Part shown: positions 11,828 through 25,684 of the stretch, one piece after another | Position numbering within the stretch: the first letter of the stretch is position 1 | How the letters are laid out: each line of letters begins with the position of its first letter | From: a virus | Strand: one strand, 5' to 3' | DNA: 42,318 nucleotides | IMG/VR virus record: IMGVR_UViG_3300044644_001692 | Location: 1 to 42,318 of that record | Program-made: the position numbers and the translations under genes | The notes under the pieces: model-generated | Databases searched by the model: none | Told to the model about the DNA's origin: nothing | What the model saw: the letters and a program-made list of their open reading frames with translations, nothing else

Positions 11828-12174
11828 GGTTTGTTCTTTTTGATGGCTTCTCGAAAAAGGTATTGAATCAAGTAAGCGCCGGTTTCCTCGTCGCTGCTGG
11901 TGATGTGCTTCAAGAAATCCTGCACAACGTGGTACAGCTCATGGACGAGGCTGCCGGTGTCTGCGGCGTCTTCGATCCAGACGACCGCTTGACTTCCGCA
12001 GCACATGGCCCAGGCGGCGTCGGAGTCGTCGGGCTGGTTGTCGGGGTCTTTGGGGTCGAGCTGGAGGATGTTCGCACACCGCCGGATCGCCGATGCCTGT
12101 GGCGTTCCACAATAGAACTCCACGACCAGACCGAAGGTCTGCTCTCGGACAACGAACCGGCGGGTGCGTTTCAT
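11824..12174 (-). CDS. Metallopeptidase-like protein (HExxH)
   Basis: 116 residues. Near residue 79 it has SLVHELYHVVQDFLKH, a zinc-protease HExxH pattern (H-E-L-Y-H), and further on EETGAYLIQYLF, where the Glu could be the third zinc ligand as in gluzincin/minigluzincin folds. The N-terminal half is a beta region (RRFVVREQTFGLVVEFY). Overlaps the next gene by ATGA and abuts the nuclease gene upstream. Short minigluzincin-type proteins of this build occur in phages. A protease cutting host or phage proteins is plausible, but no substrate can be named. Confidence 0.6.
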   Translation of the reverse strand: MKRTRRFVVREQTFGLVVEFYCGTPQASAIRRCANILQLDPKDPDNQPDDSDAAWAMCCGSQAVVWIEDAADTGSLVHELYHVVQDFLKHITSSDEETGAYLIQYLFREAIKKNKP

Positions 12175-12947: not shown

Positions 12948-13520
12948 TTACCAGCTAATCTCTTCGTCGTCCGTGCCGGTCTTGCGCGACTCGGGCTTGG
13001 CTTCGGACACGTCGAAGCCGTAGGACACGGCGCTGCCGCCATCGCCCCAGGTGACCAGCTCAAGAACTTGCACGGCCTTGGGCTGGAGCGTGACGCCGGC
13101 GCCGAGGGACGCCGTGTACCAGCAGTAGGGAACTACCGCGACTTTGATCTTGCTGCCGCCGCCGATGTTGTCGGTGATGGGTTCGCCCGCGGCGTTGAAG
13201 AGCTTGGGCGCGCGGCTGTACATCTCGCCGTCCTTGCCCTTACCCATGGCCTTCACTTTGAGTTTGAGTTGGACGAGGCCGTCGTTGTCTTCCCACGGCG
13301 CGGCGTGCATTTTCAATTTGTCTTTCTTCAGCTCGGCCTTTTTCTGCGCAACGAACTCGGCGAGCAGGGACTCGACTTGGCTAAGGAACGGTTCGGCTTC
13401 CTCGGCAGACATCTCGAGGTTGACTTTATAAACGCCGACTTCATCGAACTTCGTGTCGGGTTTATTGAGGCTGGCGTAGCGGGCGATGCCCACGGGCGTG
13501 GTTATGGTTTTATTTGGCAT
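12948..13520 (-). CDS. Single-stranded-DNA-binding protein (phage gp2.5-like)
   Basis: 190 residues starting MPNKTITTPVGIARYASLNK, a start typical of T7 gp2.5/DUF2815-like phage SSBs. A beta-barrel region (VGVYKVNLEMSAEEAEPFL, NIGGGSKIKVAVVPYCWY, GAGVTLQPKAVQVLELV) ends in an acidic, aromatic tail (TGTDDEEISW), the part by which SSBs recruit polymerase and helicase. Start at 13518-13520 is chosen because the upstream extension lies inside the neighbouring nuclease gene. It coats ssDNA at the fork and in recombination. Confidence 0.8.
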   Translation of the reverse strand: MPNKTITTPVGIARYASLNKPDTKFDEVGVYKVNLEMSAEEAEPFLSQVESLLAEFVAQKKAELKKDKLKMHAAPWEDNDGLVQLKLKVKAMGKGKDGEMYSRAPKLFNAAGEPITDNIGGGSKIKVAVVPYCWYTASLGAGVTLQPKAVQVLELVTWGDGGSAVSYGFDVSEAKPESRKTGTDDEEISW

Positions 13521-13521
13521 G

Positions 13522-13887
13522 TTATGTGGTTGGTTGGGTTTTTGGTTGGATGGGAAAGTCGGAGTGACGCATGAGCGTACAAAATTCATTGAACGGAAGC
13601 GTGACAAGCATCTCGCTGTGGTCGCGGCGGTGGATGACGGCGCACAGATCAGTGCCGGCGTCACGGCGGGCCTGCGCGATGGCGGCATCCAAGTCGAAGC
13701 GGGCGCGGCCGTGGCGCTTGCACTCGAAATGCCATCCGGGCAAGCAGGGCACGACAATGTCAGGCGCAGAGATTCCCCATTGTCCCTGGCTGACCTGCGC
13801 GCCCCGCTTGGCCGGAAATCCTTCGGCGGTCAATGCCTTGGCGACTTCGCGTTCAAAGCATGCACCTTTCTGGCGGGAGTTGATCAT
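13522..13887 (-). CDS. Holliday-junction-resolvase-like nuclease (PD-(D/E)XK)
   Basis: 121 residues. MINSRQKGACFEREVAKAL is the N-terminal helix with the Glu typical of archaeal-Hjc/phage resolvase folds. GISAPDIVV then PGWHFECKRHGRA gives Asp ... Glu-x-Lys (ECK), the catalytic motif. A C-terminal helix follows (AAIAQARRDAG). Start 13885-13887 overlaps the helicase stop by ATGA. It would cut branched DNA made during recombination-dependent replication before packaging. Confidence 0.75.
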   Translation of the reverse strand: MINSRQKGACFEREVAKALTAEGFPAKRGAQVSQGQWGISAPDIVVPCLPGWHFECKRHGRARFDLDAAIAQARRDAGTDLCAVIHRRDHSEMLVTLPFNEFCTLMRHSDFPIQPKTQPTT

Positions 13888-15266
13888 TCGTTCAGCGCCT
13901 CCCAAAGTTGTTTATCCGGGGCGTAGACCGCGCCATCGCCGTCAGTCAAGCGGCCAACCGGCGCGGTGCCCTCAAAGCGGGTGAGGCTTGGGCGCCAAGT
14001 AAGGTTGAGCGTGCCAGTGCGGCCGGCGCGGTGCTTGGCAACGATCAGCTCGGCGTCCTGCGGGTCGGGTTCTTGGTCGGCGACCGCGTAGTAACAAGGA
14101 CGATGGACTAAGGCTACGATGTCGGCGTCTTGCTCAATGCTGCCGCTCTCGCGGAGGTCGCTAAGTTTCGGGCGGTTGTCGCTGCGGTTTTCCGCTTGGC
14201 GGTTGACCTGGGCGGCGGCGACCACCGGCACGCCTAGCTCCATGCTCATCGCCTTCAATCCGCGCGAAACAAAGCCGACTTCGTTTTCGCGGGACTGGGC
14301 GCCGCTGTGCGAGACGAGCTGCAGGTAATCAACGAAGATGCATTTGACGTTCCAGCGGCGGACGGCCAAGCGCGCGCGGCCGCGGATGTCGAGCAGCGTA
14401 AGGCCGCCGCGGTCATCAACGTACAGCGGCTCGCTGGCGAACTGGGTGGCGGCGTCCATGATGCGGTGCTTGATGGATGCGGTGAGGAAGCCGTTGCGGA
14501 TGATCTCGGTATTCGTTTCAGCGCGGCTCAAGACAACGCGGGCGGCCAATTCGTTGGCCGGCATCTCGAGCGAAAAATAAACAACGGGCACGCCGCGGCG
14601 TGCCATGTTGTCCGCCATATTCAACATCAGTGCGCTCTTACCCATGGCGGGACGGCCGGCGACAATCGTGAGCTGACCTCCGCGGAGACCGCCGGTGACT
14701 TGGTCGAAGTCCTTGATGCCGGTCTGCAGGCCGAGCTTGCGGTTGCCGGACATGAGGGCTTCCAGCTCGTCAAGGAGGCCCGGCACGATGGCGCTCGGGG
14801 CGCGCATGCTGTCGGTGGCGGTGGTGAGGGACAAGCTCAAGACCGCTTCACCGGATTGCTGGAGGACGCTGTCGGCGTCGGTTGCCATGTCTTGGGCGGC
14901 GGCCTGCATGGCGACTGCGGAGTCAATGATCCGGCGGCGAGCGTGGAGGTCGCGCAATGTTTGCGCGTGGTACTCAACTGCGGCGGGGCCGCCCGCGGAG
15001 TTGCCGAGCATCTCGGTAAGGGCACCGGCACCGCCGACCGAATTTAGCTTGTGCGCAGCATCGATGCGCTGGGTCACGGCGATGACGTTGGGCGTGCCGC
15101 CGGAGGCGCGGACTTCGGTGATGGTTTCAAAAACCAGCCGGTGCGCGGGCGTGAAGAATAGATCGGCGTGGAGACCGGAGACCTCGTCAACGAGGTTCGG
15201 GTCGGCCATGAGGCTGCCGAGGACGGCGCGCTCGGTGGCGGGCGACTGGGGCACGGTGCGTTTCAT
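13884..15266 (-). CDS. dnaB: Replicative DNA helicase, DnaB family
   Basis: 460 residues, full DnaB length. N-terminal domain: PQSPATERAVLGSLMADPNL and LFFTPAHRLVFETI. RecA-like domain: Walker A VAGRPAMGKSALM (~residues 199-211), PVVYFSLEMPANELAAR, IFVDYLQLV (Walker B), AAQVNRQAENRSDNRPKLSD and DADIVALVHRP (arginine-finger region). It unwinds DNA ahead of the phage fork, presumably loaded by the initiator at 17062..17901, as in lambda O/P systems. Start ATG 15264-15266; its stop overlaps the resolvase start. The full-length phage copy implies little dependence on host DnaB. Confidence 0.92.
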   Translation of the reverse strand: MKRTVPQSPATERAVLGSLMADPNLVDEVSGLHADLFFTPAHRLVFETITEVRASGGTPNVIAVTQRIDAAHKLNSVGGAGALTEMLGNSAGGPAAVEYHAQTLRDLHARRRIIDSAVAMQAAAQDMATDADSVLQQSGEAVLSLSLTTATDSMRAPSAIVPGLLDELEALMSGNRKLGLQTGIKDFDQVTGGLRGGQLTIVAGRPAMGKSALMLNMADNMARRGVPVVYFSLEMPANELAARVVLSRAETNTEIIRNGFLTASIKHRIMDAATQFASEPLYVDDRGGLTLLDIRGRARLAVRRWNVKCIFVDYLQLVSHSGAQSRENEVGFVSRGLKAMSMELGVPVVAAAQVNRQAENRSDNRPKLSDLRESGSIEQDADIVALVHRPCYYAVADQEPDPQDAELIVAKHRAGRTGTLNLTWRPSLTRFEGTAPVGRLTDGDGAVYAPDKQLWEALNE

Positions 15267-16492: not shown

Positions 16493-17065
16493 TTAAGCAG
16501 GGTATGGGACATCGGCTGTACTATGGGTCAAAGATTCTTGGGAATATGTAGCCGCGACCTGGTCAAGAAGCTCCCAGTTGTCGGGGGCGCGGTCGGCCAT
16601 AAGCTCGCCATGCACGCCGCGAGAAACCATGCGGGCTACTTTTCTGAATTCTTGCGGCTGGTAGTTCGTGCTAACCCGATTGGCAAACTCAGATCTTGTG
16701 TAAAAAAGCCACTGCTTGCGGTCGGGCAGATAGGCCGCTAACACGTCGTAGGCGTGCCGTGAGTACGGCTTATTATTGCGAGCAGTGTTGTAAATTTTGT
16801 AGGCGCCTTGGCGAGGAGTCCAAATGCCGGTTTTCTCTTGAATTACTAATGGCCGACCCGGCGGTTTGCGGATGATGTGATCAAAATCTCTGCCGCCTCC
16901 AATGTTGACTGCAACTTCGTAGCCGCGCTCTAGAGCTGCAATTTCAAAACGCTTTTCAACAATTGCGCCTTTTGGGCCAGGGTGAATCTGCACAGCGGCT
17001 GCCCCACCCTCGGTCACCGCCGAGTGCTCGCCATCCTCAACTGCAAATAGCGCTGGCTGCGTCAC
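16493..17065 (-). CDS. PD-(D/E)XK nuclease-like protein
   Basis: 190 residues. A central core AIVEKRFEIAALERGYEVAV, then GGGRDFDHIIRKPPGRPLVI-QEKTG, shows Asp followed by Q-x-K-type strand residues (IQEKTG) as in PDDEXK_5-like endonucleases. Downstream come an Arg/Tyr-rich region (YKIYNTARNNKPYSRHAYDV) and YLPDRKQWLFYTRSEF. It resembles the protein at 18303..18812 in architecture. Overlaps the initiator gene's end by ATGA. Candidate branch- or end-processing nuclease; activity unproven because the catalytic Glu/Gln is ambiguous. Confidence 0.6.
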   Translation of the reverse strand: MTQPALFAVEDGEHSAVTEGGAAAVQIHPGPKGAIVEKRFEIAALERGYEVAVNIGGGRDFDHIIRKPPGRPLVIQEKTGIWTPRQGAYKIYNTARNNKPYSRHAYDVLAAYLPDRKQWLFYTRSEFANRVSTNYQPQEFRKVARMVSRGVHGELMADRAPDNWELLDQVAATYSQESLTHSTADVPYPA

Positions 17066-17901
17066 GCTGCGTTCTCCTTCTCAAATTGTTCGCGCATCTC
17101 GGCAAGGCTGCGCTCAAGGGCGGTTTGTTTGGGGCGGCCTTGGGGTGGCAGCTCGACGATCACGGGCTTGGCCGGGGCTTCGACGAAGCAGCCGCGCCAG
17201 CCGTGCTTGACCGACTTGCGCAGGGCTTCGACCGCGGCGGCTTCGTTGACGGCGGCGAGGTCATCGATGATGCGCTTGGCCGCAGTGGGCGTGAGCGGGG
17301 CGCGCAGCTCGCGGCGGTGTTGGGCGAACTCGGCCCAGGCGCGGGCGAGGCCGGAACCATGAGGCAGCGGAATAGATGCTGGGTCGAATTTGGGAGCGGT
17401 GGCGCGTTTTGGTTTGGGTGCCGCTACTTCCGAGAAAGAAGGATGCGAAGGCGATGAAATCGCCGGAGCTGGCGCGTCAGCGCTTGTGTTAATAGTCTTA
17501 TTAAGTCTACTAGTCTTATAGGGGTCAGCTACTGACCCATGAGTGTCGCCATTTGACCCATAAGCGTCAGCATTTGACCCATATGGGTCAGTAGCTGACC
17601 GGTCAGATGCTGACACTTCGGGGTGCTGACCAACGCGCAAAAGCTGATACTTGGCGGCAGTTCCAGGGCCACCGGCTCGAAGCACCTTGATTTCTCCGGC
17701 GTCAATAAGCCGGCGCAGGGCATCCTTGACGCCGTTGCGACTTTTTAGCCCAGAGCGCTCCTGCAGCATGGCAACCGTCATGCTGGCCTCGTTGGGCGTT
17801 TCTTTGGGTGCGCGCCAAGCCAGCACCGTAAGGACCATCTTGGCCGCCACGTCTTGCAGGTTGCAGATGTTCACTGCGTAGTTGGCTGCAGCTACGCTCA
17901 T
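17062..17901 (-). CDS. Replication initiator, lambda O / DnaD-like, with origin inside the gene
   Basis: 279 residues. N-terminal winged helix (~residues 5-90): VAAKMVLTVLAWRAPKETPN, MTVAMLQERSGLKSRNGVKD, then the recognition/wing part ALRRLIDAGEIKVLRAGG. Residues ~100-135 are four 7-residue repeats (SATDPYG, SNADAYG, SNGDTHG, SVADPYK) encoded by 21-bp DNA iterons. The C-terminal half is a proline-rich linker plus a helical domain (GLARAWAEFAQHRRELRAPL, SVKHGWRGCFVEAP), suited to helicase contact. The layout matches lambda O: the protein binds iterons in its own gene and recruits helicase, here a phage DnaB a few genes downstream. Start 17899-17901 overlaps the upstream stop by ATGA. Confidence 0.8.
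   Translation of the reverse strand: MSVAAANYAVNICNLQDVAAKMVLTVLAWRAPKETPNEASMTVAMLQERSGLKSRNGVKDALRRLIDAGEIKVLRAGGPGTAAKYQLLRVGQHPEVSASDRSATDPYGSNADAYGSNGDTHGSVADPYKTSRLNKTINTSADAPAPAISSPSHPSFSEVAAPKPKRATAPKFDPASIPLPHGSGLARAWAEFAQHRRELRAPLTPTAAKRIIDDLAAVNEAAAVEALRKSVKHGWRGCFVEAPAKPVIVELPPQGRPKQTALERSLAEMREQFEKENAA
17484..17616. other. Candidate phage replication origin (iterons plus AT-rich unwinding region)
   Basis: On the minus strand, four consecutive 21-base units begin near 17603 and end near 17520, each of the form GGTCA-N4-CTGAC-like plus a TAT/CAT end. The outer units contain the dyads GGTCAGCTACTGACC and GGTCAGTAGCTGACC; 17523-17540 and 17583-17600 are exact inverted copies, and 17575-17590 is the palindrome TGACCCATATGGGTCA. 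A partial extra unit sits at ~17606-17616. Beside the iterons, 17484-17519 is AT-rich with repeats TAGTCTTA and AAGTCTA. Iterons plus adjacent AT-rich DNA inside the initiator gene is the lambda ori design. Confidence 0.75.
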
Positions 17902-18299
17902 CGGCGCCACCGGTTGCGGCGGATGCCGTCGCGGTTCTCAAAGACAAGGCGGCCCTCGGCGTCCGCCTTGACGTACACACACTTGATGCGCTCGCCGGCC
18001 GACCAGTCCGCGGCGTTTTGCACCGAGCAGATCACCGGCTCCGACCAGTCCGGCACTGAAACGTAGAGGAGGCGGCCGTTAGGGATCTTCTTGGGGAGGA
18101 CCGCGCCGGTGACCTCCTCGCCGGGTTGGTAGCCGACCTGCTTGGCCACTGTTTCGGCGAGCTGCTGGTCGGAGACTGGGGTGGCTTTAAGGATGTCTTC
18201 GGGGGTTGGCTTGGTGGGTTCCGCAGCGACAACCTGAGCGGGTTGACTGACGGGTTGACCGATTGCTGACTTTGCTTTTTCGATGAGGGCGTTGATCAT
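17898..18299 (-). CDS. Hypothetical protein of the replication operon
   Basis: 133 residues. N-terminal helix (MINALIEKAKSAIGQPV), a Pro/Ala/Gln-rich linker, then a beta-rich C-terminal domain (GRLLYVSVPDWSEPVICSVQ, GERIKCVYVKADAEGRLVFE) with a basic end (GIRRNRWRR). The C-terminal part looks like an OB or SH3-like barrel with a basic tail, consistent with nucleic-acid binding. ATGA overlap with the initiator suggests a partner role in initiation. No family recognised. Confidence 0.6.
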   Translation of the reverse strand: MINALIEKAKSAIGQPVSQPAQVVAAEPTKPTPEDILKATPVSDQQLAETVAKQVGYQPGEEVTGAVLPKKIPNGRLLYVSVPDWSEPVICSVQNAADWSAGERIKCVYVKADAEGRLVFENRDGIRRNRWRR

Positions 18300-18302
18300 A
18301 AA

Positions 18303-18812
18303 TTAGGCTTTCAGCGCGTCTTCGATGACGTGCCAGTTGTTGAGGGTTGAGAGGTCGGTGACCTGCACTTGGTGCTGGCCAGCGATTGAGGCGAGGGGCC
18401 AAAACCGGAAGGCCTCAGCCGGAGGGATATAGACGGCCAAAATGTCGAAATCTCCGGGCTGGTAGAGGCGATATTTATCGGTCGGCCTGCCTGCGTCCGC
18501 AGCGCGGCGCCTGTCTTTTGATCCCCGAGCAGCGCCAACAACCACGCGCCAAGTATTCTTGTTCCACTGAGCCTTCTTAACCTGCACCGTCAGCGGCTTG
18601 TGCGGCGGCATCCAGATAATCGCATCCGCTTTCTGGCTATGGCCGATTGGCATCCAAGTGACAAAGCCGCGCTCTCTGGCGGCCTTCAGTAAACAGATCT
18701 CCTCAAGGCTGCCGTCGTTGCCTAGCGCGTTGTAATCGACAGGTTGCTTCGGAACCGTAACCTCCTTGACATTAAAGAGGTATTCGGGCGAGTCTTCGGC
18801 GATGAGTGTCAT
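18303..18812 (-). CDS. PD-(D/E)XK endonuclease-like protein (PDDEXK_5 type)
   Basis: 169 residues. GNDGSLEEICLLKAARERGF, then IGHSQKADAIIWMPPHKPLT, VQVKKAQWNKN gives the Glu in the first helix, Asp in ADAIIW, and Q-x-K (VQVKKA): the nuclease pattern of viral PDDEXK_5 endonucleases. Later KYRLYQPGDFDILAVYIP is typical of that family's second half. First long gene after the promoter/operator region at 18902-18976. Relative of 16493..17065 by layout. Possible junction or host-DNA nuclease. Confidence 0.65.
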   Translation of the reverse strand: MTLIAEDSPEYLFNVKEVTVPKQPVDYNALGNDGSLEEICLLKAARERGFVTWMPIGHSQKADAIIWMPPHKPLTVQVKKAQWNKNTWRVVVGAARGSKDRRRAADAGRPTDKYRLYQPGDFDILAVYIPPAEAFRFWPLASIAGQHQVQVTDLSTLNNWHVIEDALKA

Positions 18813-20249: not shown

Positions 20250-20398
20250 TTGCGCTTCCTCCAGATCCTCTCGGCCACCGCCAACATGGCAGCCGCCGGC
20301 AAACACGGCCGCTCGCCGTGATACACCTTGGCGCCGGACTTCTCGTTGTCCCGCGCGGCGAGCCATTGTGTGACGAGGTCGATGTCGTGGGTGGTCAT
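20246..20398 (-). CDS. Small hypothetical protein after the methyltransferase
   Basis: 50 residues: MTTHDIDLVTQWLAARDNEK, then SGAKVYHGERPCLPAAAMLA, VAERIWRKRK. Helical and basic at the end. ATGA/GTGA overlaps with both neighbours show real translation coupling, and the sequence is protein-like. No family recognised. Confidence 0.6.
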   Translation of the reverse strand: MTTHDIDLVTQWLAARDNEKSGAKVYHGERPCLPAAAMLAVAERIWRKRK

Positions 20399-21555
20399 GG
20401 TGCTTCCTCCATCAGCTCGCCAACGAGAACTCGGAAAGCTCGCTCTGCGGTGGCAGGCACGACTCCATTGCCGAGGAGTCGCAGCTCATCGGTGCGATTG
20501 TCTGTGGAGATGTGCAGGACGGCATGGTCCAGCCGATGGGTAAGCCCATCAGCGTCTCGACCCAGCGAGGGTTGAGCTTGCCGGTCGCTCTCGCTTCCAC
20601 CTCCACATTCAGTTGCTTGTATTGAACTATGGTCGGATCTCGATGACCGCTCTTGTGGTCTTTCGCTTGGGGCGTTGCCCAAGAAACCATCTCGTTCAGA
20701 TTCTTCACGCCATGGCCCTTGGCTCTCATCGCCGCAATCTGCTCCGGTGTCTTCGGACCTTGGGCATCGTGGGCTTGTGGTGTCGCCCATTGTCTCGCCG
20801 TCGCTTCCAAAGACTTTGCTGATTGGTGATTCGGATTGCTGGAAACTCCTCTGGCGCCATGCGGACCCGTTTGAGTGTCGGGCGTCGGCCACGACTCTTG
20901 GCGGTTCCCATTCGTATTGCTGCTGGCCCGGGCGGCTTGGCCATGCATCACGCTGACAGCTTGTCCAAGCGTTTGTTCGCCAATCTTCGGACGGGAAGGC
21001 GGGTGTGTCCCAGTAATGGAATCTTTCCAGTCCCTCGCATTGGCGGTGGGCCAAGATGAAGACCCGCTTACGCTGATGGACTGCGCCGACTTCAGACGCT
21101 GAGAATATGCCCCACGTCGTTCGGTAACCCATTCCTGCCAAGTCTTGCAGCACGTCGGGAAGCCCAAGGCTGCAATGTCCTTCGACGTTTTCAAAAAAGC
21201 AGGCACCTGGTCGCATGAGAGCAATTCCGGCTGCGATAAACGGCCAGAGGTGTCTTGGGTCTTCGGCGCCGAGTCGCTTGCCGGCTGCGCTGAATGGCTG
21301 GCACGGATAGCCGCCACTGAGGATGTCCACGCGGCCGTGAAACTCGGACCATGGGAAGGTTTTAAGATCCGTCCAGATAGGAGCTGGGTCCAAGAGTCCC
21401 GCTTCCATTTTAGAGACCAAGTTCGCGCAGGCGAAACTTTCGATCTCACTAAAAGCGATTGTGCGCAGGCTTGGGATTGCTCGTTTAAGTCCGAGATCAA
21501 TGCCTCCGTATCCGGCACAAAGGCTGACGTGTGTAATTGCTTTGGTAGTATCCAC
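20395..21555 (-). CDS. DNA (cytosine-5)-methyltransferase
   Basis: 386 residues. Motif I THVSLCAGYGGIDLGLKRA (~8-26, SAM binding); motif IV GGYPCQPFSAAGKR with the catalytic Cys near residue 84; motif VI ENVEGH (~121); motif VIII QRKRVFILA (~160); C-terminal motif X LRLLGNGVVPATAERAFRV (~358-376). Between them lies the target-recognition region, made of ADARHSNG-, GDTTSPR- and GNAPSER-like repeats, as in phage orphan methyltransferases. GTG start (21553-21555) preceded by AAGGAG. No cognate endonuclease is adjacent, so it is probably an orphan enzyme protecting phage DNA or regulating. A second long frame overlaps the whole gene. Confidence 0.9.
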   Translation of the reverse strand: MDTTKAITHVSLCAGYGGIDLGLKRAIPSLRTIAFSEIESFACANLVSKMEAGLLDPAPIWTDLKTFPWSEFHGRVDILSGGYPCQPFSAAGKRLGAEDPRHLWPFIAAGIALMRPGACFFENVEGHCSLGLPDVLQDLAGMGYRTTWGIFSASEVGAVHQRKRVFILAHRQCEGLERFHYWDTPAFPSEDWRTNAWTSCQRDAWPSRPGQQQYEWEPPRVVADARHSNGSAWRQRSFQQSESPISKVFGSDGETMGDTTSPRCPRSEDTGADCGDESQGPWREESERDGFLGNAPSERPQERSSRSDHSSIQATECGGGSESDRQAQPSLGRDADGLTHRLDHAVLHISTDNRTDELRLLGNGVVPATAERAFRVLVGELMEEAP

Positions 21556-21557
21556 AT
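20412..21557 (-). CDS. Second long frame overlapping the methyltransferase (WPTPxARD-type protein)
   Basis: 381 codons open in another frame, ATG two bases upstream of the methyltransferase GTG (ATGTG) with the same AAGGAG. From about residue 110 it reads like a phage protein family I recall, often fused or adjacent to C5-methyltransferases: KTWQEWVTERRGAYSQRLKS, then repeats SSWPTANARDWKD, SWPTPDTQTG, WATPQAHDAQG, SWATPQAKDHKSG, and the ending LNPRWVETLMGLPIGWT. The first ~100 residues are less convincing. Either it is a genuine overprinted gene or one frame is a decayed relative of the other; reading-frame conservation would decide. Confidence 0.5.
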   Translation of the reverse strand: MWILPKQLHTSAFVPDTEALISDLNEQSQACAQSLLVRSKVSPARTWSLKWKRDSWTQLLSGRILKPSHGPSFTAAWTSSVAAIRASHSAQPASDSAPKTQDTSGRLSQPELLSCDQVPAFLKTSKDIAALGFPTCCKTWQEWVTERRGAYSQRLKSAQSISVSGSSSWPTANARDWKDSITGTHPPSRPKIGEQTLGQAVSVMHGQAARASSNTNGNRQESWPTPDTQTGPHGARGVSSNPNHQSAKSLEATARQWATPQAHDAQGPKTPEQIAAMRAKGHGVKNLNEMVSWATPQAKDHKSGHRDPTIVQYKQLNVEVEARATGKLNPRWVETLMGLPIGWTMPSCTSPQTIAPMSCDSSAMESCLPPQSELSEFSLAS

Positions 21558-24132: not shown

Positions 24133-24353
24133 CCCGCCACGACTACCTCGCCACCGGCACGTTCCCATGGGACGGCATCCGCATCGCCGGCCGCCGCTTT
24201 GACTCACCGGAGCTGTTGGCCATGATGCGCCGGCAGTGCGTCTGCGCGGACCAGATCCGGCATGCCTGCGCGGACCTTGATGTGCTGCCATTCGCCGAGG
24301 AGGTTGCGGGGATTGAGGAGCATATTTGCCGCATTGAGGCGGCTTACTGCTGA
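24129..24353 (+). CDS. Hypothetical protein, plus-strand block
   Basis: 74 residues, MTRHDYLATGTFPWDGIRIA, later CVCADQIRHACADLDVLPF and a helical end. It overlaps the lipoprotein stop by ATGA, and its 3' end overlaps the convergent integrase by ten bases. The CVC...C set may bind metal. No family recognised. Confidence 0.5.
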   Translation: MTRHDYLATGTFPWDGIRIAGRRFDSPELLAMMRRQCVCADQIRHACADLDVLPFAEEVAGIEEHICRIEAAYC

Positions 24354-25447
24354 TCCCAGACCGCCGCGATATCCACCTCGCGGTCGTACACGGCATACCA
24401 AGTCGAGGTCGTGGTCGGGGAACTATGGCCAAGCATGTGCTGCGCCACGCTGATCTTGCCGGTCGCGTTCAAGATATCCGAGCCGGCCTGCCTCCGCAGC
24501 TCGTACGCTGCCGTCCGCCGATCCGGCAGGAACTCCCGGACGAAGGCGTTGAAGATCCGCTCCATGAAAAACTTCCGGCGCCCAATCGTCTTGCCCTCCA
24601 CCATGTAATCCTCCGCGGTGAGCAGCTCCGCGGCCATCCATTCGGGAATGGACATGGCGCGGCCCCGCTTGCTGCCGGTCTTGAGCGTCACACCGTCACG
24701 CTCGATGATGACCATGACGAACTTGCCGTTGCGCTGCTCAATCCACTCCCGCCGGCAAAGCCAGCACTCCTTGGGCGTCATGCCCAGGTAGCGCGTCAGC
24801 AGGAACGCCCGCCGGATCGATGGGGAACGCTGCTTGCTGGCATTATCCATGTTGCTAAGTATCGCCGGCGAGATCCGCTCAAAGGTAGGCGAGGGCGCCC
24901 GCATGCCCTTGGTCGTCTTGGCAAACTTCTCCAGCGACTCCGGTAACGGAAAGCCCTCCCAGTCCAGCGCATGACAAAACACGGCCCGCGCCGACACCAG
25001 CACGCCGCGCAGCGTGTAGACGCTGCCCTTCCACTCCGCGAGATACTTGGCCACCAGCGCCGGCGTCAGCACGCTTAGTGGCTTTTCCCGCACCTGCTCG
25101 TTGGTGCCGCCGAGCGTGGCCCGCAGCAGCCGCAACAGACGATTGACATTGCTCTGCTTGCTGCCGATCTTGCTCACCTTCAAATAATGGTCAATCGCCT
25201 CACCAATCGACTTCGACGTGGCTCGCTGCTGGTGTGCCTGCAGCGCCGCCAGACCCTCGCGTCCGGCATCGACCAGGATGCCCTTGGCCTTCTCCTTGGC
25301 CATGGTCAGGTCGCGCAGTCCGGTGGAAATGCGAAGTCGCTTCTTGGTGTGCGGATGCCGGAACTCAAACTGCCACCGCGGCGAGTCGGTTGTTTGGTAG
25401 AGCTTGCCGGTCAGACCGGCCGCCGTGATCTTGTGCGTGGTGTCCAT
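24344..25447 (-). CDS. int: Tyrosine integrase
   Basis: 367 residues from MDTTHKITAAGLTGKLYQTT. N-terminal arm-binding region (WQFEFRHPHTKKRLRISTGL), SAM-like core-binding region (residues ~75-170), then catalytic domain: LLTRYLGMTPKECWLCRREW (box I), a Lys-containing hairpin VTLKTGSKRGRAMSI, box II with YELRRQAG, LGH (HMLGHSSPTTTS), and the nucleophile Tyr in STWYAVYD. The box-I Arg normally seen in GLR-x-x-E is Thr here, and the box-II His is Tyr, which many active enzymes also have. Start ATG at 25445-25447 is preferred over an upstream TTG. Adjacent attP region supports site-specific integration. Confidence 0.88.
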   Translation of the reverse strand: MDTTHKITAAGLTGKLYQTTDSPRWQFEFRHPHTKKRLRISTGLRDLTMAKEKAKGILVDAGREGLAALQAHQQRATSKSIGEAIDHYLKVSKIGSKQSNVNRLLRLLRATLGGTNEQVREKPLSVLTPALVAKYLAEWKGSVYTLRGVLVSARAVFCHALDWEGFPLPESLEKFAKTTKGMRAPSPTFERISPAILSNMDNASKQRSPSIRRAFLLTRYLGMTPKECWLCRREWIEQRNGKFVMVIIERDGVTLKTGSKRGRAMSIPEWMAAELLTAEDYMVEGKTIGRRKFFMERIFNAFVREFLPDRRTAAYELRRQAGSDILNATGKISVAQHMLGHSSPTTTSTWYAVYDREVDIAAVWDQQ

Positions 25448-25486
25448 GCCGGAACCAATAGCACGGGCGTCAAACCCTGCCAAGGT

Positions 25487-25684
25487 GTCTGGCAAAATCT
25501 GGCGGGTAGTTTGACAAAAAATAGGCCAAACCAGATCAAACCAGATTGCACCAGATCAAAACTTTTGCTCTGTTCATCAGAGAAAGCGGGACTTCGGCTA
25601 GGTAGCTCAGTTGGCAGAGCAGAGGACTGAAAATGCCCCGCCTTGCTGTGTCCGATTGCCGCTCTGGCGCGGAGTCTGGCAAAA
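25487..25684. other. attP region with integrase arm-site candidates
   Basis: GTCTGGCAAAA occurs at 25487-25497 and again at 25674-25684, flanking the tRNA-like core; related TCTGGCGG/TCTGGCGC units sit next to each. Between the left arm and the core are three 10-base direct repeats, CCAGATCAAA, CCAGATTGCA, CCAGATCAAA (25531-25560), whose CCAGA is the complement of TCTGG. Repeated sites on both sides of a core, close to int, are the standard arrangement of integrase arm and accessory sites. Confidence 0.7.
25596..25634 (+). other. tRNA-Phe 5'-half homology, attP core
   Basis: 39 bases read as the first half of a tRNA-Phe(GAA): acceptor-type seven bases at 25596-25602, TA, D-arm GCTCAGTTGGCAGAGC (25605-25620), anticodon stem and loop to 25634 with anticodon GAA at 25629-25631. 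The following GCCCC cannot pair with the anticodon stem, so the match stops there. It is not a complete tRNA gene. It is best read as identity to the host attB, crossing over at or before the anticodon loop. Confidence 0.75.

Follow-up and report, generated by a model that had tools for sequence, protein, structure and literature searches.

The initiator locus and its gene neighbourhood

The window, meaning the whole stretch of DNA that was analysed, is a viral IMG/VR record of 42,318 bases from an uncultured phage. Nearly all of its long genes are carried on the minus strand. Terminase, head and tail genes are encoded, and the phage is temperate on the basis of an integrase gene at 24344-25495. 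A replication block contains the genes for a replication initiator, a phage-encoded DnaB-type helicase and a single-strand binding protein (Table 1), with several small genes lying between the initiator and the helicase. The helicase is the probable partner of the C-terminal half of the initiator. In relatives the DnaB gene keeps its position at 68-98% identity, and the single-strand binding protein and exonuclease genes are likewise retained as neighbours. RNA families and tRNAs were looked for and none were found. Elsewhere in the window, two long overlapping reading frames of 386 and 381 amino acids occupy the minus strand at 20395-21557; a profile match identifies the first as a DNA methyltransferase, and the second contains methyltransferase-like phrases near its end.

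Table 1 Positions of the initiator gene, its internal elements and the associated replication genes in the window
Feature	Position	Strand	Sequence or evidence
Replication initiator gene, 282 aa	17062..17910	minus	Open reading frame; PHROG_678, E 2e-19
Putative exchange cassette, from the start codon through the A+T block (codes for the DNA-binding domain and holds the probable origin)	17484..17910	minus	
Iteron 1	17601..17616	minus	GTGTCAGCATCTGACC
Iteron 2	17586..17600	minus	GGTCAGCTACTGACC; palindromic arms exact
Iteron 3	17565..17579	minus	GGTCAAATGCTGACG
Iteron 4	17544..17558	minus	GGTCAAATGGCGACA
Iteron 5, beside the A+T block	17523..17537	minus	GGTCAGTAGCTGACC; palindromic arms exact
A+T-rich block, 36 bp	17485..17520	minus	TATAAGACTAGTAGACTTAATAAGACTATTAACACA; directly after the last iteron; contains TAAGACTA twice
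Shared junction at the cassette end	17473..17483	minus	GCGCTGACGCG; follows the A+T block in most types; identity to other types resumes here
DnaB-type replicative helicase, phage-encoded	13884..15266	minus	Pfam DnaB_C 5.9e-85; DnaB N-domain 1.5e-17
T7 gp2.5-like single-strand binding protein	12948..13757	minus	PF21265 4.1e-12; phrog_112 5.1e-26; reading frame as listed begins upstream of the likely start codon

The structure of the initiator was predicted with AlphaFold2. The predicted protein consists of a winged-helix domain (residues 6-90), a disordered linker (97-164), a helical C-terminal domain (186-236) and a C-terminal helix (264-281). Residues 1-90 were modelled with a pLDDT of 71-90 and residues 97-164 with one below 50; only the local folds of the model were trusted, because the mean pLDDT was 64 and the pTM 0.35. 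The linker peptide encoded by the middle of the gene reads SASDRSATDPYGSNADAYGSNGDTHGSVADPYKTSRLNKTINTSADAP. The PHROG_678 profile, annotated as replication initiation O-like, was matched by 13 of 13 family members and by lambda O itself (1.7e-35), and the HTH_36 profile by eight of the 13. A Pfam search with the window protein gave no match, and a PDB fold search returned only weak winged-helix resemblances, none below E 0.001, the best being to a MarR/CodY-like winged helix (E 0.048). In BFVD the matches were phage helix-turn-helix replication proteins; the TM-scores were low, which is to be expected when two domains are joined by a floppy linker. Direct homology to lambda O was not detected by hhalign (probability 0.2%) or BLASTP (E 1.1).

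Iterons and the A+T-rich block

Five palindromic sites of the type GGTCAG-NNN-CTGACC span positions 17523-17616 in the linker-coding part of the gene, with centre-to-centre spacings of 15.5, 21, 21 and 21 bp. The first-pass annotation had described four iterons of 21 bp whose repetition could also be read in the encoded peptide. The 21-bp period was recovered by Tandem Repeats Finder (17518-17600, 3.5-3.7 copies, 73-75% match), and the copies do share one frame and give a repeating peptide, but there are five sites rather than four, and the natural repeat unit is a dyad of 15-17 bp, not a 21-bp direct repeat. The exact inverted copies and the 16-bp palindrome of that annotation were both located, the former as an 18-bp pair (17523-17540 with 17583-17600; 88% over an ungapped extension of 25 nt) and the latter, TGACCCATATGGGTCA, at 17575-17590. 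Within the record, exact matches to GGTCAGNNNCTGACC are confined to the iteron array.

The AT-rich block with short repeats that had been reported beside the iterons was also found. This block is 75% A+T, compared with 39% for the gene, and is the gene's most A+T-rich stretch of its length; in the entire record, 19 of 42,282 36-bp stretches reach 75% A+T, many of them overlapping the block itself. By its composition and position it is a probable unwinding element.

Repetition in the linker was compared with synonymous codon shuffles of the gene. The linker contains 24-26 repeated 8-mers, against 1.5-2.2 expected and a maximum of 9-13 in the shuffles (p 0.002, the lowest value that the test can give). 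Outside the linker the gene is near expectation, with at most six in any stretch. Lambda O, used as a positive control, gave 17 repeated 8-mers against 1.0 expected. The excess in the linker ruled out a chance repeat. The same excess was seen in 42 other linkers bar one, L008, whose linker was incomplete in the test. An initial dyad statistic was weak for L003, L010 and type B3 because the arms of their sites are imperfect; the 8-mer statistic is unaffected by this.

Homologous initiators and their iteron types

A scan of viral contigs recovered 66 homologous loci, all on contigs of uncultured phages, and a second scan with the C-terminal domain gave 80 loci, some of them new. No relatives were found in cultured phages, plasmids or prokaryote genomes, and tblastn against phage records gave none at E 0.001. 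The family proteins are mosaic. Nine N-terminal types were distinguished by sequence (A, B1, B2, B3, C, D, E, F and G), and these correspond to at least seven iteron types, since C, E and F share a nearly identical iteron, GRTGACGCAGCGTCAYC. The remaining iterons are GKGTCRNNATYTGACMC-like in type A, GGTCTCAGAATGAGACC in B1, GGTGCANNNNNTGCACC in B2, GGTCTAAANNTTAGACC in B3, TGACAATTTGTCA in D and GGTGTCAGCGTGACATT-like in G. Each iteron target type was matched to its own winged-helix type. Across 48 loci, the distance between N-terminal domains correlated with the distance between iterons (Mantel r 0.66, P 0.0005) and not with the distance between C-terminal domains (r 0.05, P 0.2), both P values ignoring shared ancestry.

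Complete homologue linkers carry four to eight iteron copies in a site scan that tolerates four mismatches, so that a few outlying copies are probably chance matches. The last iteron lies 108-134 nt ahead of a conserved KFDP motif, the exception being a type F member (83 nt). Most types combine a spacing of 21-23 bp with one or two closer pairs at 15-17 bp; this pattern does not hold in B2, D, G and part of A. An A+T block of 55-75% A+T follows the last iteron in all types.

The reading frame of the repeats separates a constraint on DNA from a constraint on peptide. In the type A homologues L003 and L010 the dyad is found in all three reading frames. The 17-bp motif of B1 likewise occurs in frames 0, 1 and 2, where it encodes GLRMRPV, WCQNETP and PVSERDP, respectively, and B2, B3, C, E, F and G carry the motif in two or three frames, the encoded peptides being unrelated. 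Iterons are thus kept among homologues while the peptide is not, as the first-pass annotation had suggested might be seen. The four iterons of lambda O fall in frames 0, 2, 2 and 1. These comparisons show the repeats to be constrained as DNA, not as peptide. The argument depends in part on the homologues because the five sites of the window share one frame, as does every copy in type D; there the peptide repeats as well (DNLS repeats in type D), which would also suit a linker motif such as DPYGSNA being kept for the protein, with the DNA repeat as its by-product. That explanation is scarcely credible given that the same DNA is read in two or three frames in the other types, that 8-mer repetition exceeds that of synonymous shuffles and that the linker is predicted to be disordered; it was rejected on the differing frames. 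The position of the iterons in DNA that codes for a predicted disordered part of the protein would account for the freedom of the peptide to vary there.

A probable replication origin within the initiator gene

The order of elements at the locus (winged helix, iteron-bearing linker, A+T block, C-terminal domain and downstream replication genes) is that of lambda O, in agreement with the lambda-like origin that the first-pass annotation proposed, and the predicted fold and disorder bear out the placement of the iterons in the linker of a winged-helix initiator. The array is very probably the replication origin of the phage, located inside the gene for its own initiator. The repeats, their constraint as DNA, the A+T block, the pairing of domain type with iteron type and the cassette boundaries are evident from sequence; as the means of initiation at this site we infer binding, dimerisation, unwinding and helicase recruitment, as follows. 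The N-terminal winged helix would bind each of the five iterons in its own coding sequence, probably as a dimer; the assembled complex would strain and open the adjacent A+T block; and the C-terminal helical domain and terminal helix would recruit the phage DnaB, as in the gp18/gp12 pair of P22.

The sites could in principle be operators, at which a winged-helix regulator binds its own gene and represses its own or downstream transcription while replication starts elsewhere. Palindromic sites are typical of regulators, the best (though weak) PDB resemblance is MarR/CodY-like, and the skew change point described below is not at the sites. Operators are nevertheless highly unlikely here: the five sites lie about 300-390 bp into the gene and are helically phased, the A+T block is always on the same side of them, the protein has a second conserved helical domain, all 13 members match replication-initiator families, and the gene sits in the replication block. 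Centromeres and packaging sites, too, contain short inverted repeats in phase, and the borders of the exchanged segment coincide with the array, so that a partition, packaging or recombination site might be considered in place of an origin. The neighbours are replication genes and not partition genes, the terminase gene is about 7 kb away, and the type of the array agrees with that of the winged-helix domain which the gene encodes, all of which make such a function more improbable still.

GC skew had been suggested as a check on the origin. The strongest skew change point within 8 kb lay upstream of the iterons, by 0.91-1.17 kb, in nine of 10 genomes; in the other one the distance was 3.8 kb. 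A change point is thus present near the site, but its sign is the reverse of lambda's and contrary to the leading-strand rule of bacteria, and skew was not counted as support for the origin because of this polarity, though the location is consistent. In the window the change is sharp, at about 18.3-18.5 kb, and most genes on both sides run in the same direction. The change may reflect an inverted mutational bias or a module border; a terminus is the less likely reading.

Exchange of the DNA-binding domain together with the probable origin

Sliding identity between the window and L008 is 93-97% just upstream of the gene, 40-47% at +31 to +390 and 82-98% from +451. L018 shows the same pattern, and identity resumes at +451 in L005, L007 and L035 as well. 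In comparisons that leave out types E and G, the N-terminal part of the window is 53.9% identical to that of L005 and the C-terminal part 96.2%; for L002 the corresponding values are 89.2% and 73.6%. N-terminal types combine freely with the C-terminal domains, of which there are four (c1-c4), and with the two tails. These alignments go beyond the first-pass annotation: they indicate a swapped cassette that runs from the start codon through the A+T block. The GCGCTGACGCG junction is kept across most N- and C-terminal types and may be either a part of the origin or a homology patch for exchange. Because the iterons are located in a stretch coding for disordered linker, the gene can apparently carry almost any iteron sequence, and the DNA-binding domain and its cognate iterons could therefore be inherited as one segment of about 420 bp. 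This segment would recombine between phages while the helicase-side half stays.

Within the B clade the N-terminal domains are 69-83% identical. From B1 to B2 to B3 the half-site changes from GGTCTC to GGTGCA to GGTCTA, and the recognition helix from ARATVARCL to ARRTVADCL to CRATVANSL. The clade makes it testable how an origin-binding protein switches its target without losing the origin. The family as a whole, with about 50 distinct homologues, at least seven iteron types and a largely constant helicase-side half, is a useful panel, a natural test set in which to follow changes in the DNA that such proteins recognise.

More than one type is present in several metagenomes; 3300042924, for instance, contains B1, B2 and C. 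We tentatively suggest, as a possibility short of a favoured reading, that a dedicated specificity cassette, made up of the origin and the DNA-binding half, recombines at fixed borders (the start codon and the GCGCTGACGCG patch), that at least seven mutually non-matching types co-circulate, sometimes in the same metagenome, and that this diversity is kept by a penalty on shared origins, whether through parasitic elements, through nucleases directed at origins, such as Odn, or through competition between origins when phages co-infect. The fixed borders allow one to ask what selects origin diversity in natural phage populations. Two related PD-(D/E)XK proteins encoded on the minus strand flank the initiator (16493-17065 and 18303-18812; phrog_5018, with Pfam PDDEXK_5 below cut-off) and could be homing-type or origin-directed nucleases. 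The gene directly after the initiator is present in nearly all relatives at an identity of merely 27-94%, and for that reason seems to be swapped too; it is a candidate for the agent that punishes shared origins.

Comparison with known replication systems

An origin inside the initiator gene has long been known from lambda O and P22 gp18 (PMC7466680, PMC8022706). Lambda O has in common with the present family the mid-gene dyad iterons, the A+T block after them, the PHROG_678 match and iterons in several frames; the lambda record also has recombination joints annotated within gene O, immediately after ori. The first-pass annotation was right that the sequences differ: lambda iterons are ATCCCTCAAAACGAGGGA, and there is no direct protein match. 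The GC-skew polarity is opposite as well. Lambda uses P to load the host DnaB, while the window phage encodes its own helicase. For this reason the arrangement is closer to P22 gp18/gp12 than to lambda O, and the phage-encoded DnaB, correctly recognised at first, is a P22-like trait and not an oddity.

In genes 18 and 12 of P22 and of phage L, iterons lie in the initiator coding region and the phage supplies a DnaB-type helicase (PMC8022706). Origin specificity differs between relatives (PMC8022706). The repeats, which differ in sequence, number four in P22, at about 20 bp each, and six in L, at 11 bp each. Internal iterons, a phage-encoded DnaB and an origin specificity that varies among relatives are shared with the present family, a likeness of arrangement. 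The small genes between initiator and helicase are a difference from P22, as are the number and sequence of the repeats.

Cassette exchange has a precedent in the RepA/ori modules of PLE, satellites of Vibrio cholerae, in which the DNA-binding domain varies together with its cognate semi-palindromic iterons and the C-terminal domain is retained (PMC8263062). These modules have been swapped repeatedly, with the ICP1 origin-directed nuclease Odn proposed as the driver; the PLE origin is intergenic, RepA has a RepA_N domain and two specificities are found in five elements (PMC8263062). In the family of the window, by comparison, origin and domain form one contiguous segment of a single gene, with at least seven iteron types.

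Phased iterons, a winged-helix initiator and an adjoining A+T-rich unwinding region are also features of iteron plasmids of the RepA/RepE type. Plasmid iterons lie outside the rep gene, whereas here they are inside it, and the search for plasmid relatives of the window initiator found none. What the present family adds is a single-gene cassette with this many target types, together with the residue-to-half-site changes of the B clade. Neither of these was found described in open-access papers, a scope outside which most subscription journals fall.

Iteron sites beyond the search set

The whole viral collection was also scanned for the iterons themselves, since parasites or satellites would be expected to have copies beyond the initiator gene. 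The exact 17-bp B1 site occurs in 31 contigs, all with an initiator-family gene, and no type B1 iterons were seen outside that gene; in six contigs new to the search, the site is in the gene's linker. A pattern scan for type D gave eight stretches, six of them in contigs with a family gene and one each in L194 and L191. In L194, at about 13833-14613, an unrelated winged-helix phage protein carries TGACAATTTGTCA iterons in a linker of DNLSPPP repeats, followed by A+T-rich DNA; this is an apparent independent internal origin with a type D target. In L191 a TGACAATTTGTCA-like dyad cluster lies at about 11860-12060, adjoined by an HNH-like reading frame.
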